Shown here piece after piece: positions 1,701 through 32,475 of a stretch of 43,458 nucleotides of DNA; position 1 is the first letter of the stretch, and the number at the start of each line of letters is the position of its first letter. A program made the translations under genes and the position numbers. The notes below the pieces were generated by a model. The model searched no databases, had not been told where the DNA came from, and was given only the letters and a program-made list of their open reading frames with translations. This DNA is from Acidaminococcaceae bacterium (GTDB lineage Bacteria; Bacillota; Negativicutes; Acidaminococcales; Acidaminococcaceae), in contig JAQVYX010000006.1 of the NCBI GenBank assembly GCA_029004715.1, positions 1-43,458 of the forward strand, read 5' to 3'.

Positions 1701-2885
1701 TTACAAGGTTATTTTTTCCTTAAATGTTTGTACCCCATCTTTTAATTCAATAATAACGGCTCCGGATACCGGATTATGATCAGCATCTACGGTAAATTTA
1801 CCTGTAGCTACCGGGAAGTCCTTAATTCTGGAAAGTTCTTGAGCAATCTTAACTCCATCAGTACTGCCTGCACGTTTTATTGCTTCAATAACAACCAAGG
1901 CAGCATCATAGCCATGAATACTGAAATTGTCCGGTTCTGCCTTGTATTTAGCTTTATAAGCTTTTATAAAGTTTTGCACGCCAGGCTCTTTATCCTGAGC
2001 AGAATAAGCACTGCAGAAATACGTATTATTTAATGCTTCTTTGCCAGCAATTTCTGCTAACTTCGGAGAATCCCAACCATCAGAACCCAAAATCGGACAA
2101 GTAAGTCCTACTTCTCGAGCTTGTTTTATAATTTTGGAAACTTCTTCATAATAAGCTGGAACATAAATAGCTTCCGGATTGCTAGCTTTAATTTTGGTCA
2201 ATGTTGCTTTGAAATCTACGTCTTTCGCCAAGAAAGCTTCCTTATCAACAACTTGACCACCATTAGCTTCTAAGGTTTTAGTAAACACAGCCGTCAAACC
2301 TTTAGAATATTCGCTGGAAGAGTCAAACAAAATAGCAACTTTTTTAACCTTCAATGTTTTTTCAGCAAAAACTGCCATTACCTTACCTTGGAAAGGATCA
2401 ATAAAACAAGCACGGAAAACAAAAGGTTTTACTTTACCATCTTTACCCACGGTAATTCCAGGTGCTGTTGCTACCGGCGCCATTAACGGCACTTTATTAG
2501 CAGTAGCAATAGGTGCACTAGCTGCTACGCAACCACTAGTTGCTGGTCCTATAAGTACAACCGCGTGATCCGCTGTAATTAGCTTAGTAGCAATATTACC
2601 TGCTTCAGCAGGTTCAGACTTATTATCACCTTGCACTAGCTTAATCTTTTTACCCAATACGCCACCCTTAGCATTAGCCTGCTCAATGGCTAATTGTACT
2701 CCATTTAATGTAGATTTACCGTAATTGGCAACACCGCCGGTCAATTCAAAATGTGCTCCTATTACGATTTCATCACTCTTGGCCGCATCTTTCTTTGCTC
2801 CGCCACAGCCTGCAAACATTGTGGTCATTAGCATAGCAGCACATGTACACCCAACTGCTTTCTTCCATGCTTTCATTAGAGTCAC
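1701..2885 (-). CDS. Second Liv-type substrate-binding lipoprotein (tandem paralogue)
   Basis: 394 aa; lipobox MLMTTMFAGCG; similar to the 371..1540 product along its whole length (e.g. PFVFRACFIDPFQGKVMAVFAEKTLK vs DFMFRACFIDPFQGTVMAAFAKNTLK). Confidence 0.93.
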   Translation of the reverse strand: MTLMKAWKKAVGCTCAAMLMTTMFAGCGGAKKDAAKSDEIVIGAHFELTGGVANYGKSTLNGVQLAIEQANAKGGVLGKKIKLVQGDNKSEPAEAGNIATKLITADHAVVLIGPATSGCVAASAPIATANKVPLMAPVATAPGITVGKDGKVKPFVFRACFIDPFQGKVMAVFAEKTLKVKKVAILFDSSSEYSKGLTAVFTKTLEANGGQVVDKEAFLAKDVDFKATLTKIKASNPEAIYVPAYYEEVSKIIKQAREVGLTCPILGSDGWDSPKLAEIAGKEALNNTYFCSAYSAQDKEPGVQNFIKAYKAKYKAEPDNFSIHGYDAALVVIEAIKRAGSTDGVKIAQELSRIKDFPVATGKFTVDADHNPVSGAVIIELKDGVQTFKEKITL

Positions 2886-3173
2886 CTTTTCTTTCCCCTA
2901 TTTTCTTTTTTAGCTACAATATATTTTCATCTTGTAACTTCTGCCTAACATTATAAGAAACTATTCACACTCTTGTCAATGTTTTTCTCCAATATTTTGA
3001 ACACCTTCCCTCTTTTTTTGTGAAAACTTGCCAACAACCTTCTCACTTCTAAAGTTGTGTGTATTTAAAGCGGACATGTGTACTATATTTATGTACTTAG
3101 CGTTTTGGCTATGTGCTTTTCATTCTAAGCCTTTTAGGTATATAATGTAGTGAGCATTAGACAGGAGGTCCTT

Positions 3174-3572
3174 ATGAAACTATTCCCACTTTTTTTCATC
3201 GTTCTTGAAGTAATCAATATTTTTTTCTATAAACACTACTATTATTATACCCAATGGATGACGGCACTCCTACGCAATCCTCCCAAGGATAAACTTAGAG
3301 TTGTACTCATTAATAAGATAACCTTACTTTTTATTGCTAATTATATACTACACTTCTTCTTTTTAGCTTACTGTATATATCTTATGTTTAGTGGTAACTG
3401 GCAACCAGGATGCATGCTTTTGCTGCTTGCAACTTTGGAAAGTTTCTCTGTGCAAAAAAACATCGACGGCGTAACAGTTAAACAGGAAAATGGTTTTACC
3501 TATCCCAAAGCTCCTTTTAAGTATTTAATTTCTTCCTTAACTATCTTTATTTTAATAAATCTAGCAAAGTAG
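3174..3572 (+). CDS. Hypothetical membrane protein
   Basis: The ORF track opens at 3150, but ATG 3174 (MKLFPLFFIVLEVINIFFYKHYYYYTQ...) is preceded by acaggaggtcctt. Several hydrophobic segments; no family recognised. Confidence 0.65.
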   Translation: MKLFPLFFIVLEVINIFFYKHYYYYTQWMTALLRNPPKDKLRVVLINKITLLFIANYILHFFFLAYCIYLMFSGNWQPGCMLLLLATLESFSVQKNIDGVTVKQENGFTYPKAPFKYLISSLTIFILINLAK

Positions 3573-3611
3573 CATCCTTACGATTATCATCTTTCTATGC
3601 CAAGGTTGTTT

Positions 3612-3663
3612 ATAAGCAAATAAGTGGCCTCCCGAAAAATCGGGAGGCCACTTATTTGCTTAT
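3612..3663. terminator. Bidirectional intrinsic terminator
   Basis: 24-bp perfect inverted repeat ATAAGCAAATAAGTGGCCTCCCGA with AAAA loop, between convergent genes ending 3572 (+) and 3666 (-). Confidence 0.85.
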
Positions 3664-3665
3664 TA

Positions 3666-5363
3666 TTAGTTAAAATTATATTCTGTAACGATTTTTTCCC
3701 TTCCTGTTACTTGGTCTTGGTAATATTCGTAATAACAAATTCCTAAATATGACCCAGACATATTTATAACATTATCATATCCTACATTTTGCAAAGCCAT
3801 AACCGCATTATAGCTTCTTTGTCCTGAACGACAGTACAAATATACAGGTTGATCATGAGGTATTTCCTCTAATCTTCCGCGTAACTCGCTAAGAGGAATA
3901 TTAACTGCATTTTTTAGATGTCCTTTAGCAAATTCATTTTTTTCTCTCACATCCACAATGTAAGCATTACTTTCCACTAGTTCTCTAGTCTTTGCCACTG
4001 GAACTTGTCTATATCTGCCATACAAAAGATTTAGGCCTACAAGTGCGGCAAAATTAACCACATCTTTTGCTGTGCCAAACAAGGGTGCATAGCAAAGCTC
4101 AAGTTCTTTCAAATCCTCAAGTGTGCCCCCCATAGTAATTATTGCCGCAATGACGTCTATGCGTTTGTCCACATTGCCCTTGCCTATAGCTTGAGCACCG
4201 AGTATTTTACCTGTAGGATATTCATATACCAACTTAAAGTGCATAGGATTGCTATTGGGCATGAGTCCAACCTTGTCCCCGGGAATTATATAAACAAAGT
4301 CACAACATATCCCTGCTGCCTTGGCCGCCTTTTCGCTGAGTCCTGTACACGCTGCTCCTAAATCAAATATCTGCACTACTGATGACCCTATGACGCCATT
4401 ATTGTTGTGTGGTACCCCGTACATATGATCAGCTGCTGCTCTTGCCTGTTTTTGTGCCGGACCGGCCAAGGCTAGCCTTGAAGGTTTATGTGTTAATTTG
4501 TTATATACCTCTATAGCATCGCCTACTGCGTAAATATTTTTGTCATTGGTAAGATAATTATGATCTACCTGTATAGCCCCAGTAACTCCAACATTCAAAC
4601 CGGCATCTTTGGCAAGGCTTGTTTCCGGTGCCACTCCAATTGCCATTATTACGGCTTTGGCCGGAACTTGTTTACCTGACTGCAATTCTACAAAGTCTTC
4701 TGTAATTTTTTTAACGCCGTCACTTAAGATAAGACTTACACCCTTGTCCAGCATTTCTTTATGCAAAATTTGGGCCATATCATAATCAAAAGGAGCCATT
4801 ATTTGATCAAGTGCTTCGATAAGACTAACATTTTTACCGGCAAGACGTAGATTTTCAGCTACCTCCACACCAATGAAACCTCCACCAACCACGGCAACAT
4901 CATTAATTTCATTATCAACAATATAACTGTTAAGTTTTTTAATGTCTACTACATTTCTTACTGAAAAAACATTAGTTCCTGTTATGCCTTCAATACTTCT
5001 TGGCAATATAGCATTCGCTCCCGGAGACAAAACCAGCTTGTCATAGGCTTCTTCGTATTCTTCCCCGGTTAGTAAATTTTTAACCACAATTTTTTTTGCT
5101 TCTCTTTTTATTTTTATAACTTCACTATTAACTCTAGCCTCAATGTCATATTGTGCCTTAAAACGCTTGGGGTCCATCATTATAAGCTTGTCACTATCGT
5201 CAACAATACCGCTTAGATAAAAAGGTAGGGAACAGTTAGAAAATGACACATCCGGCCCCTTCTCAAACATTATAACTTCTGCAGCCGCATCTATTCTTCT
5301 TACTCTTGCAGCAACCGATGCGCCTCCTGCTACTCCACCTATTATTAGAACCTTTTTACTCAT
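3666..5363 (-). CDS. CoA-disulfide reductase-type FAD/NAD(P)-dependent oxidoreductase fused to a C-terminal rhodanese domain
   Basis: KVLIIGGVAGGASVAARVRR (FAD site), SFSNCSLPFYLSG (single active Cys as in CoADR), second Rossmann VAVVGGGFIGVEVAENLR, C-terminal rhodanese YLYCRSGQRSYNAV. Start moved to MSKK (AGGAG 9 nt upstream) from the track start at 5372. Confidence 0.9.
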   Translation of the reverse strand: MSKKVLIIGGVAGGASVAARVRRIDAAAEVIMFEKGPDVSFSNCSLPFYLSGIVDDSDKLIMMDPKRFKAQYDIEARVNSEVIKIKREAKKIVVKNLLTGEEYEEAYDKLVLSPGANAILPRSIEGITGTNVFSVRNVVDIKKLNSYIVDNEINDVAVVGGGFIGVEVAENLRLAGKNVSLIEALDQIMAPFDYDMAQILHKEMLDKGVSLILSDGVKKITEDFVELQSGKQVPAKAVIMAIGVAPETSLAKDAGLNVGVTGAIQVDHNYLTNDKNIYAVGDAIEVYNKLTHKPSRLALAGPAQKQARAAADHMYGVPHNNNGVIGSSVVQIFDLGAACTGLSEKAAKAAGICCDFVYIIPGDKVGLMPNSNPMHFKLVYEYPTGKILGAQAIGKGNVDKRIDVIAAIITMGGTLEDLKELELCYAPLFGTAKDVVNFAALVGLNLLYGRYRQVPVAKTRELVESNAYIVDVREKNEFAKGHLKNAVNIPLSELRGRLEEIPHDQPVYLYCRSGQRSYNAVMALQNVGYDNVINMSGSYLGICYYEYYQDQVTGREKIVTEYNFN

Positions 5364-16124: not shown

Positions 16125-16290
16125 TTGTCCACAGAGTTACCAGTAACATTTATCCATAAAGTTATGCACAACTGTTGATAACTTAATATCTTTTTTTTAA
16201 TTGTTGATAACTAGCCCAATAGCTGGTATGATGGGGGAGTAGAGTATTTTTTATCCACTAAGTTATGCACAGCTTTAATAGTTATGCACA
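16125..16290. promoter_or_regulatory. oriC: Upstream oriC/DnaA-box cluster between rpmH and dnaA
   Basis: Perfect TTATGCACA at 16162-16170, 16263-16271 and 16282-16290. Near matches TTGTCCACA 16125, TTATCCATA 16150, TTATCCACT 16251, and reverse TGTTGATAA at 16173 and 16202. Confidence 0.9.
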
Positions 16291-16374
16291 GCTTCAATCA
16301 CTTTTATTATTTTCGCTTTTTTATAACAAATGATGTATAATAAAAACCAGTAATAATTTTACAAAGGACGGTTT

Positions 16375-17760
16375 ATGATGAATAATGCTAACATTTCCGA
16401 TATTTGGGAAGGCTTACTCAACTATGTTGAATCCTGCACGGAAGATCCGGGATATGCACGTTGGGTAAAAGAAGCCATGCCACAAAGTGTAACTGGCAAT
16501 GTCTTTGAAATTGTAGTTGAAAAACAATTTATCAAAGATTGGATTGATAATAAATATAAAGCAAATATGGAAAAAATTCTCAGTTCTTTATGTGGCAGAG
16601 AAATGAAGTTACTTATTACAAATTTAAATACTAAAGATGAGGAAGATCGTAGTAATATTATTGACAGACCAATTGTACCTATAATTCCACAAGCAGAAAA
16701 ACAAATTTCTATTTCTTCCCCATTTAAAAATAGTATTGATGATCATCTTATAGGTAAATATGTGTTTGAGAATTTTGTCATCGGCAATTCAAATCGTTTT
16801 GCCCATGCTGCTGCTCTTGCTGTTGCAGAATCACCAGCAAGAGTTTATAATCCACTATTTTTATATAGCGATGCCGGTTTAGGTAAAACACATTTAATGC
16901 ACGCAATTGGTAATCGTATTAAACAAAATCATCCGGAAATGAAAATTTTATATATTTCCAGTGAAACCTTTACTAATGAAATGATTAACTGTATTCAAAA
17001 AAATGCGATGGAAAATTTTCGTAATAAATATCGTAACATTGATGTTCTATTAATTGATGATATTCAATTTCTGCGCAAAAAAGAAAGTACTCAAGAAGAA
17101 TTTTTTCATACCTTTAATGCTTTACGAGATGCAAATAAACAAATTATTATATCAAGTGACCGCAAGCCTTCCGAATTAGATACTTTGGAAGAACGTTTGC
17201 GTTCTCGTTTTTCTTGGGGACTTTCAACTGATATTCAACCTCCGGATTTAGAAACAAGAATGGCTATTTTACGTAACATGGCAGCTTCCGATAATATCGA
17301 ATTGCCAAATGATGTGGTTTTACTGATGGCAAGTGCCATTGAAACAAATATTAGAGAGCTAGAAGGCGCCTATACTAAAGTAATTGCTTACACAAATTTC
17401 TCTAATACACCAATTTCTTTAGAAAACGCTCAAAAAGCATTAACTGAATTTAATATTGGTAATATTAATAAAATAATATCAATTCAAGAAATTCAGCAAC
17501 TGGTATCTACTACTTTCAAAATAAAAATGGATGATTTTTTGGCTAAAAAACGCACTAGAAATGTAGCTTTTCCCAGACAGATAGCTATGTATCTTTGCAG
17601 AGAACTGACAGATTATTCGCTACCAAGAATTGGAGATTTTTTTGGTGGAAGAGATCATACAACTGTCATTCATGCTTGTGAAAAAATATCTAAAGACATG
17701 AAAAAAGATCCTAATTTAGAAAAATCAATCAAAGATATTATAACTCAATTAAAAAAATAA
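16375..17760 (+). CDS. dnaA: Chromosomal replication initiator DnaA
   Basis: 461 aa; NPLFLYSDAGLGKTHLMHAIGN, VLLIDDIQFLRKKESTQEEFFHTFN, GGRDHTTVIHACEKI. Confidence 0.98.
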   Translation: MMNNANISDIWEGLLNYVESCTEDPGYARWVKEAMPQSVTGNVFEIVVEKQFIKDWIDNKYKANMEKILSSLCGREMKLLITNLNTKDEEDRSNIIDRPIVPIIPQAEKQISISSPFKNSIDDHLIGKYVFENFVIGNSNRFAHAAALAVAESPARVYNPLFLYSDAGLGKTHLMHAIGNRIKQNHPEMKILYISSETFTNEMINCIQKNAMENFRNKYRNIDVLLIDDIQFLRKKESTQEEFFHTFNALRDANKQIIISSDRKPSELDTLEERLRSRFSWGLSTDIQPPDLETRMAILRNMAASDNIELPNDVVLLMASAIETNIRELEGAYTKVIAYTNFSNTPISLENAQKALTEFNIGNINKIISIQEIQQLVSTTFKIKMDDFLAKKRTRNVAFPRQIAMYLCRELTDYSLPRIGDFFGGRDHTTVIHACEKISKDMKKDPNLEKSIKDIITQLKK

Positions 17761-17761
17761 G

Positions 17762-17960
17762 TTATCCACAGTCTATGGATAACTCTGTTTATAACTTGTG
17801 TCTAAATTTGTTCATAACTCATTTTTTTCTTATCCCTGTTAGTATGTTAATAACTAACTTGATTTTATAAACAAGTTTTAATTTATTTAAAACCAGTACT
17901 CATCGCAGTGTTAAGTACTTTTCCACATATCAACAAAGCCTACTACTACTGCTACTATAT
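17762..17960. promoter_or_regulatory. oriC: Downstream oriC region (dnaA-dnaN) with DnaA boxes and DnaA-trio-like repeat
   Basis: TTATCCACA 17762-17770, TATGGATAA 17774-17782, TTTTCCACA 17919-17927, then CTACTACTACTGCTACTATAT 17940-17960 running into AT-rich DNA. Confidence 0.85.
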
Positions 17961-30910: not shown

Positions 30911-30975
30911 TTTATTATTACATAAATTTATAACAAGGCAATAAATTGGTCGGTGGGTGGGGGGAAAATAAAAAT

Positions 30976-31854
30976 ATGAAAAATAAAAATGGTGTTATTT
31001 ACGGTTTGCTCAGCTATTTTTTATGGGGCATATTGCCTATTTACTGGAGCAGCATAAAAGGTGTAGATGCTTTTGAAATTTTAGCTAATCGCATAGTTTG
31101 GGCTTTGATTTTCATGATTATAGTGCTGGTGGTATTAGGAAAATGGGGGGAATTTCTACAAGAGGTTAAAAATATATGCCTCAACCGTAAAAAACTGCTC
31201 ACCGTTATTGGAGCAGGCATTACAATTTTGTTTAATTGGGGAATATTTATTTGGGCAGTTAGCCAAGGACGCATCATTGAAACCAGTATGGGTTATTACA
31301 TAAATCCTTTGGTTAGTGTCTTGTTTGGTGTTGTTTTTTTGGGAGAAAGCTTAGATTTATGGTCAAAAGGAGCTGTAGCTTTAGCAGCCATTGGCGTTGG
31401 TGTTATGATTTTTAATGTAGGAGTTTTCCCTTGGATTTCTTTGAGTTTAGCACTTACCTTTGCTTTTTATGGTCTTCTTAAGAAAACTTTGGTGGTAGAT
31501 ACTAAAACAAGTATTCTTTTGGAAACACTAGTTGTTCTACCGCTGGCCTTGGGATATATTTATTACCTTTCTACTTTTGGTCGTGCGGCTTGGCAGCACT
31601 CGTCTACTACAAACTTGTTGCTTTTGTTTGCATCAGGTCCTGTGACAGCAATACCATTATTACTATTTACAGCTGCGGCTAAACTGTTACCATTAAGTTT
31701 CATAGGATTTTTACAATATCTTGCACCTACTTTAAGTTTGATTATAGGTGTGTTTATATATGGGGAAGCCTTTACTTTTGGTCATTTGCTTTCTTTTGGT
31801 TGGATTTGGGCAGGGCTGCTTGTTTTTACTCTTAACCAATTTCGAAGTAAATAA
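30976..31854 (+). CDS. rarD: EamA family permease RarD
   Basis: MKNKNGVIYGLLSYFLWGILPIYWSSIKGVDAFEILANRIVWALIF is the RarD N-terminus; start placed at MKNKNG rather than the track's 30946. Confidence 0.9.
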   Translation: MKNKNGVIYGLLSYFLWGILPIYWSSIKGVDAFEILANRIVWALIFMIIVLVVLGKWGEFLQEVKNICLNRKKLLTVIGAGITILFNWGIFIWAVSQGRIIETSMGYYINPLVSVLFGVVFLGESLDLWSKGAVALAAIGVGVMIFNVGVFPWISLSLALTFAFYGLLKKTLVVDTKTSILLETLVVLPLALGYIYYLSTFGRAAWQHSSTTNLLLLFASGPVTAIPLLLFTAAAKLLPLSFIGFLQYLAPTLSLIIGVFIYGEAFTFGHLLSFGWIWAGLLVFTLNQFRSK

Positions 31855-31878
31855 CTACATTTTGTGGTGGTTGTATAT

Positions 31879-32044
31879 TGTGTATAATGTCCCCAGACTT
31901 ATCCACAGGCAGTATGTTTTGTGCATAACTTTGGTTGATAATCCTTAATAAATGTAAACAATTCGTAAATTAGCAAAAAACTGCGAAAATCATCCCAATG
32001 TTATCCACAGGATTGGGGATAATGTGGATTAAATTTGTGCATAA
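31879..32044. promoter_or_regulatory. DnaA-box cluster distal to oriC
   Basis: TTATNCACA matches: 31879-31887 (-, TTATACACA), 31899-31907 (+, TTATCCACA), 31920-31928 (-, TTATGCACA), 32001-32009 (+, TTATCCACA), 32036-32044 (-, TTATGCACA); plus TAATCCACA 32023-32031 (-). Confidence 0.85.
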
Positions 32045-32167
32045 CTATTTGAATAGTTATTTTTAAAATACCATATATAGGAATGACACATTTTTTCACT
32101 TGGGTAAAAAGCTATTTGGGGTAAGAAACTTTATAAAGTATAAATATTCTCAAATTCAAGAAAGCAG

Positions 32168-32196
32168 TTGACAAATAGTTACAATTATAGGATAAT
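32168..32196 (+). promoter_or_regulatory. Sigma70-type promoter for the ilv T-box operon
   Basis: TTGACA (32168-32173), 17-nt spacer, GATAAT (32191-32196), just upstream of the T-box leader. Confidence 0.8.
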
Positions 32197-32204
32197 ACTT
32201 TTAA

Positions 32205-32475
32205 TTTCATAGAAATATTAAAAAGTGATGATTGGGACGAAAGACAAAATGTGAACGCACAGAGAGCCGGTGGTTGGTGTAAATCGGTAGGACGCATTTG
32301 TTGAGTAAATCACCCAGGAACTCATCAGCGAAAAGGAATTCCTTAGTAGCATGATGCGTGGCAGACGCGTTAGGTCTGAGCCGATTGTTGGATTGGTGCA
32401 AAGTTATAAAATAGGGTGGTACCGCGTAAACTTTACGCCCCTGTATACGTTATATGTATACAGGGGCGTTTTTAT
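32205..32475 (+). promoter_or_regulatory. T-box leader controlling the ilv operon
   Basis: AGAGAGCCGGTGGTTGGTGTAAATCGGT stem-I distal element; canonical AGGGTGGTACCGCG T-box; terminator ACGCCCCTGTATAC...GTATACAGGGGCGT (32435-32469) then T-run. Candidate specifier in GAACTCATCAGC. Confidence 0.95.

Follow-up and report, generated by a model that had tools for sequence, protein, structure and literature searches.

The window, by which we mean the whole stretch of 43,458 nucleotides that was analysed, belongs to an Acidaminococcaceae (Negativicutes) draft genome of 2.0 Mb in 198 contigs (G000). In the gap that runs from the end of rarD to the T-box leader and the acetolactate synthase genes of an ilv operon, a scan of the window sequence found five perfect TTATNCACA boxes within 166 bp (31879-32044). 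All five boxes of the original prediction were found, at 31879 (-), 31899 (+), 31920 (-), 32001 (+) and 32036 (-), as was its near match at 32023 (-), and there is a second near match at 32014 (-). Its placement of the cluster between rarD and ilv was borne out (TIGR00688 for rarD; T-box and acetolactate synthase operon on the other side), and the same holds for the start of the ilv promoter at 32168 (TTGACA at 32168-32173), the AT-rich DNA after the boxes (24-28% GC at 32000-32250), the distance of about 14 kb from dnaA (14.1 kb in the window) and the excess of perfect boxes over the rpmH-dnaA gap (five versus three). The cluster forms the core of a discrete non-coding element of ∼232 bp (31852-32083), and the original prediction, right about the boxes, overlooked that they are arranged in duplicated modules with NrdR-like palindromes on the flanks. 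The features of the locus and its surroundings are the following.

30946..31854, + strand: rarD (EamA transporter), the conserved upstream neighbour (TIGR00688, 1.2e-65; synteny)
31852..31867, + strand: NrdR-like palindrome 1, TAACTACATTTTGTGG, which overlaps the stop codon of rarD and lies 47 bp 5' of the first module box
31879..31887, - strand: DnaA box TTATACACA, which reads TTATACATA in the second species of the genus, where the box is not kept
31899..31907, + strand: DnaA box TTATCCACA, the + box of module 1, present in 21/21 aligned rarD-linked loci (as TTATCCACA or a variant with 1-2 mismatches)
31920..31928, - strand: DnaA box TTATGCACA, the - box of module 1; its distance from the + box is 21 bp, against 12 and 23 bp in most other genera
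32001..32009, + strand: DnaA box TTATCCACA, the + box of module 2 (box I position), 102 bp after the + box of module 1
32014..32022, - strand: weak DnaA box TTATCCCCA with one mismatch, box II position, at +13 (+14 in DARS and in several genera)
32023..32031, - strand: weak DnaA box TAATCCACA with one mismatch, at +22 in module 2
32036..32044, - strand: DnaA box TTATGCACA, the final box of module 2, at +35 (+35/36 in several other genera)
32068..32083, + strand: NrdR-like palindrome 2, ATACCATATATAGGAA, 5 mismatches to the consensus
32168..32196, + strand: ilv operon promoter, a separate conserved block (TTGACA at 32168-32173, 17 bp, GATAAT at 32191-32196)
32219..32445, + strand: T-box leader of the ilv operon, a neighbour outside the element (Rfam RF00230, 100.7 bits)
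16125..17927, + strand: bipartite oriC around dnaA, with boxes in the rpmH-dnaA and dnaA-dnaN gaps; the GC skew turns here

The window contains 10 boxes where 2.5 are expected, a number that no shuffle reached, and the genome contains 118 TTATNCACA boxes against 82 for the reversed control pattern. Low GC lifts the TTATNCACA background, which would help boxes to cluster by chance in AT-rich intergenic DNA; however, a Poisson estimate for any of the 118 to have four others within 157 bp of it gives ∼4e-8, and the conservation of the cluster, with fixed spacing and synteny in 14 genera, refutes this explanation and leaves it a negligible probability. The genome-wide count proposed as a check returned it as the sole five-box cluster among the 100 of 118 genomic boxes listed, the runners-up having three boxes each (the rpmH-dnaA gap, C3:41094-41320 and C63:311-468). 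The locus has the sequence hallmark of a DnaA-box cluster (DBC), several high-scoring boxes grouped beyond chance in intergenic DNA off oriC.

Loci of relatives were fetched via RarD and the regions downstream of it compared, with genera labelled by g-numbers and families by f-numbers. Related elements were found downstream of rarD at 21 loci in 13 genera, with ∼73 perfect boxes (tallied by hand) in 21 x 300 bp against 0.4 expected; most rarD-linked loci have 2 to 7 perfect boxes each, and g14 and g2 carry chiefly variant boxes such as TTATCAACA. In the genus g12, where RarD gives a match with an E value of only 1e-4 or none, a matching element sits directly downstream of gyrA (G035, G041 and G047), and a box cluster occupies the same gyrA-adjacent place in G012. 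Conservation in relatives, which the original prediction had named as a check, thus extends to the 13 rarD-linked genera plus g12. No cluster was present at nine rarD loci (L013, L022-L025 and L027-L030) from other families and from the f1 genera g13 and g15, and as the latter two genera are without it the element is not essential family-wide. It is a discrete conserved element, near dnaA, found in most genera of the Acidaminococcaceae, a family of gut bacteria, whatever gene follows.

The element lies downstream of dnaA, at 14.1 kb in G000, ∼12 kb in G007 and 9.5-9.8 kb in G035, G041 and G047, a distance (9-14 kb) that can be measured only where one contig carries both, many of the genomes being drafts. 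The G007 distance is found even though the glpA-rarD block is inverted there, and since distances stay short despite this inversion and despite the gyrA site of g12, the near-origin location has been kept through rearrangement. In G034, at a contig start, rarD is immediately preceded by a 5S rRNA gene, from which the distance to dnaA is probably >20 kb.

Several DnaA boxes followed by AT-rich DNA could suggest a second replication origin, and a second origin module was among the roles originally predicted. Up to 15 kb the GC skew lies between -0.17 and -0.22, and past 18 kb, the element included, it lies between +0.20 and +0.27; because it turns at dnaA (15-18 kb) the origin must lie there and not at the element. 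The skew has no change of sign at 32 kb and stays positive throughout 18-42 kb, and the AT-rich stretch corresponds largely to the region of the ilv promoter and is in part poorly conserved. A second origin was ruled out on the skew, and we consider it extremely improbable.

The elements of the family have a common layout, in which an NrdR-like palindrome is followed 45-47 bp on by module 1, ∼103 bp further on by module 2, and then by a second palindrome. Module 1 of the aligned elements is TTATCCACA-N3-TGTGNATAA-N2-TGTTGATAA, with boxes +, -, - at 0, 12 and 23, and the commonest form of module 2 has boxes +, -, -, - at 0, 14, 26 and 35. The + boxes of the two modules are 101-104 bp apart in most genera and 92 bp apart in g6, one helical turn less. 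The genus of the window is a variant, with a + box and then a - box at 21 in module 1 and with - boxes at +13, +22 and +35 (13/9/13) in module 2. The module-1 spacing pair (12,11) occurs in 9/13 genera and the module-2 pair (14,12) in 4/13 rarD-linked genera, the mean over 289 possible pairs being 0.40, and at the oriC gaps of the same family the two pairs are seen in 0-1 genera. In exact form the module-1 pattern turned up in 12 family genomes, and 379 genomes gave no match to its reversed control. The tandem minus boxes of the element fit the preference of E. coli DnaA for box pairs 2 or 3 bp apart (PMC11317965).

In f7, another family of the Negativicutes, module-1 geometry is conserved in the oriC of the rpmH-dnaA gap (L262, L265 and L268-L272). 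As it also occurs there, this geometry is by itself no DARS signature, and we dropped the (12,11) module as DARS-specific. The TTATCCACA-N3-TGTGNATAA-N2-TGTTGATAA pattern is missing from the rpmH-dnaA gap in Acidaminococcaceae, as would be expected if the element were a relic or displaced half of oriC, that is, a former module of the dnaA promoter region now acting as an accessory origin part 10-25 kb away. We find this improbable, as a full bipartite box set remains at dnaA, where the skew turns, and as module 2 and the flanking palindromes are without counterpart in the f7 oriC examined.

The parallel originally drawn with datA, DARS and the B. subtilis clusters is well supported, by the lack of any comparable cluster among the 100 of 118 boxes listed, by conservation in the family and, in several relatives, by a module 2 with the geometry of the DARS core. 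DARS1 and DARS2 share a three-box core in which box I is opposite to boxes II and III, with identical spacing (PMC5742627). In the MG1655 genome both cores, TTATCCACT-N5-TGTGGATAA-N3-TGTGTATTA for DARS1 and TTATTCACC-N5-TGTGGATAG-N3-TGTGAAGAA for DARS2, have a + box and then - boxes at +14 and +26. The exact DARS order and spacing is present in 5/14 genera, in module 2 of g8, g10, g16 and g17 and in the gyrA-linked element of g12; module 2 of G016 reads TTTTCCACA-N5-TGTGGATAA-N3-TGTGAATAA, and the g12 element of G047 reads TTATCCACA-ATTCC-TGTGGATAA-N3-TGTGGGTA, with an ATTCC spacer that is shared with E. coli DARS. Module-2 spacings in the remaining genera are 13-15/9-12. We rejected the window element itself as a DARS given its 13/9/13 spacing, the spacings of 14 and 12 being found only in relatives. 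A search for the DARS-core pattern with up to three mismatches gave matches in 31/59 family genomes and 56/321 others in the class, with ∼10 control matches over 380, some of the matches outside the family lying at oriC and those of g13 inside it not being this element. The g13 matches (TTTAATACACAGCC...) were set aside, as they differ in sequence and in G036 lie 8 kb away on the other side of dnaA.

Like the DARS sites, the element is a non-coding DnaA locus outside oriC, but it has two modules instead of one core and also a fourth box, where DARS have mapped IHF/Fis sites its flanks carry NrdR-like palindromes, and it is close to the origin whereas DARS are far from it. A 2014 paper restricts the DARS2 core to E. 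coli-related gamma-proteobacteria (PMC4245941), and according to a 2026 review DARS and datA are absent from B. subtilis (PMC13220808), an organism with six DBCs outside oriC whose joint deletion leads to early initiation (PMC13220808, PMC5295017). The element shares with these DBCs the grouping of several DnaA boxes in intergenic DNA away from oriC and the occurrence in the Bacillota, and differs from them in its rarD/gyrA location, its paired head-to-head modules of fixed spacing and its NrdR-like flanks, which are undescribed for B. subtilis in the literature examined. E. coli datA is likewise intergenic, with about five DnaA boxes whose spacing matters (PMC4585315), but it requires an IHF site between boxes 2 and 3.

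Relative to box 1, palindrome 1 (16 bp) begins at -45 to -47 in the loci where it was measured, and palindrome 2 lies at +161 to +173 in most. We scored both against the NrdR consensus, ACACWATATMTWGTGT. Palindrome 1 has 5 mismatches in the window and 0-1 in g14, g9, g3 and g6, and palindrome 2 has 5 in the window, 3 in G001 and 1 in g5. Summed over the 21 loci, the mismatches amount to 74 for palindrome 1 and 86 for palindrome 2, versus 168 (sd 6) and 124 (sd 4) in Markov shuffles, with one locus (L019) in the wrong register, an error that can only have weakened the result. Perfect NrdR-consensus palindromes occur in g14 and g6, and the genome of the window encodes NrdR (TIGR00244, 196.7 bits, G000:C1:18305-18742).

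The nrdD promoters of the family carry NrdR-box pairs spaced 31/32 bp, and the g12 element has its own NrdR-like pair 31 bp apart, so that the element resembles the NrdR operators of RNR genes both in this pair and in the match of its palindromes to the consensus. The rarD-type elements differ from them in that the palindromes stand ∼216 bp apart around DnaA boxes, with no RNR gene adjoining. NrdR reportedly needs two boxes with spacers of 15-17 or 24-27 bp (PMC12051234). The rarD-type elements have single NrdR-like boxes at that longer distance and no pair whose centres are separated by a whole number of helical turns (31-32 or about 42 bp), an operator pair being found only in the g12 copy. 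We therefore rejected the flanks of rarD-type elements as canonical NrdR operators, and NrdR binding there is uncertain given the distance between the palindromes and the published spacers; we hypothesize, from the palindromes, that NrdR may bind these elements. Several two-mismatch NrdR-like palindromes also exist elsewhere in G000 beyond the known nrd promoters (L119, L125 and others).

In G000, G001 and G004 the element is followed by ilv, in many genera by an uronate-epimerase-like gene, and in G007 it lies between convergent rarD and tRNA genes. DnaA control of ilv, also among the original proposals, does not survive this comparison: most genera have another gene next to the element and one has a convergent tRNA, and since the downstream genes differ among genera the element is not an ilv operator. 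Four of the five boxes are kept in the second species of the genus, the exception being that at 31879, and within-genus identity is 91-95% for the modules and the ilv promoter (the modules by themselves at 91-94%) and 75% for the middle of the element, versus only 61% for the 74 bp between the element and the ilv promoter, a poorly conserved gap that likewise argues against an operator. A wider possibility is that DnaA and NrdR jointly control some nearby promoter, be it that of ilv, of the epimerase-like gene or of a transcript from the rarD side. DnaA is a transcription factor that binds the E. coli nrdA, nrdD, purH and polA promoters (PMC11317965), the NrdR-like flanks suggest a regulon, the g12 element is directly upstream of a gene start and TTGACA is found 5' of the first palindrome in many genera. 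Joint promoter control is nevertheless unlikely in our judgment, given that the element is constant while the downstream gene changes (and in G007 is followed by a convergent gene), that no nrd gene was seen beside it and that, in the window's genus, conservation between it and the ilv promoter is poor.

We propose instead, with a probability of roughly 0.6, that the cluster forms the heart of a non-coding locus which lies close to the origin and controls DnaA, a locus of the DBC/datA/DARS kind that is possibly coupled to NrdR. Such an element would probably tune the start of chromosome copying, perhaps in step with the supply of DNA building blocks. DnaA oligomers would nucleate on each head-to-head box pair, and the fixed spacing could bring both modules and the flanking protein into one looped complex. 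Being near the origin, the locus would be copied very soon after initiation, and its duplication would change how much DnaA is free or active immediately after firing, which is how we propose that it may set initiation timing.

Titration would be the minimal mechanism for this proposed control locus, as for the B. subtilis clusters, and exchange of DnaA-ADP to DnaA-ATP is a serious alternative for the genera with DARS-core geometry. DARS act by promoting ADP release from DnaA, and datA acts by stimulating DnaA-ATP hydrolysis. The sequence is compatible with both titration and nucleotide exchange, and the element may have either role. YabA (PF06156) was not found in the draft genome G000, which does not decide the mechanism. 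NrdR senses dATP/ATP, and E. coli DARS2 uses IHF and Fis. The boldest step would be to see NrdR as the regulatory partner that replaces these two proteins, and NrdR-like flanks in such a role would link dNTP supply to initiation directly. In the furthest version, a DARS-type reactivating or titrating core would be gated by NrdR on both flanks as a composite DnaA/NrdR checkpoint, with initiation coupled directly to dATP/ATP and no transcribed target; we regard this version as doubtful, and if it is true, the literature examined contains no earlier case of a DARS-like site outside Proteobacteria or of NrdR acting non-transcriptionally. According to the 2026 review it is not known if B. subtilis possesses regulators that balance DnaA-ATP and DnaA-ADP (PMC13220808), and the element, with its DARS-core geometry in several genera, makes control of the DnaA nucleotide state by a DNA site directly testable outside Proteobacteria.

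One of the three-box clusters of G000 (C63:311-468; L112 and L273) is just 3' of tsaD (gcp). This second DnaA-box cluster recurs in most Acidaminococcaceae genera and in the families f3 and f18, and by position it is also found in Bacillus, Paenibacillus, Macrococcus, Desulforamulus, Desulfotruncus and Syntrophomonas (loci L278-L319). At the tsaD loci outside Negativicutes we counted 54 boxes in 17 x 500 bp downstream versus 7 in ∼43 kb of gene and upstream sequence. Strong DnaA binding was reported at the same place, 3' of tsaD/gcp, in B. subtilis (PMC4447404), and this was the only paper that a literature search for the pairing of a DnaA cluster with tsaD found. The tsaD-3' cluster looks like an old, phylum-wide extra-origin DnaA site, its position being shared from Bacillus and Paenibacillus to Negativicutes, which suggests an ancient presence of DnaA sites outside the origin in this phylum.

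The cluster at G000:C3:41094-41320 (L111) has three perfect boxes and one TTATCAACA in 280 bp and is intergenic, upstream of a predicted membrane transporter. G012 contains a second core of exact DARS geometry, TTATCCACA-N5-TGTGGATAA-N3-TGTGTATAA (G012:C10:55662-55768; L115), on a contig other than that of its gyrA-linked cluster. In the genus g12 another dnaA-like reading frame precedes dnaA by 1.6-1.8 kb (G035:C1:109-1179 and 2757-4136; G041:C31; G047:C4), and an identity of ∼60% over residues 102-461 suggests a tandem dnaA paralogue.
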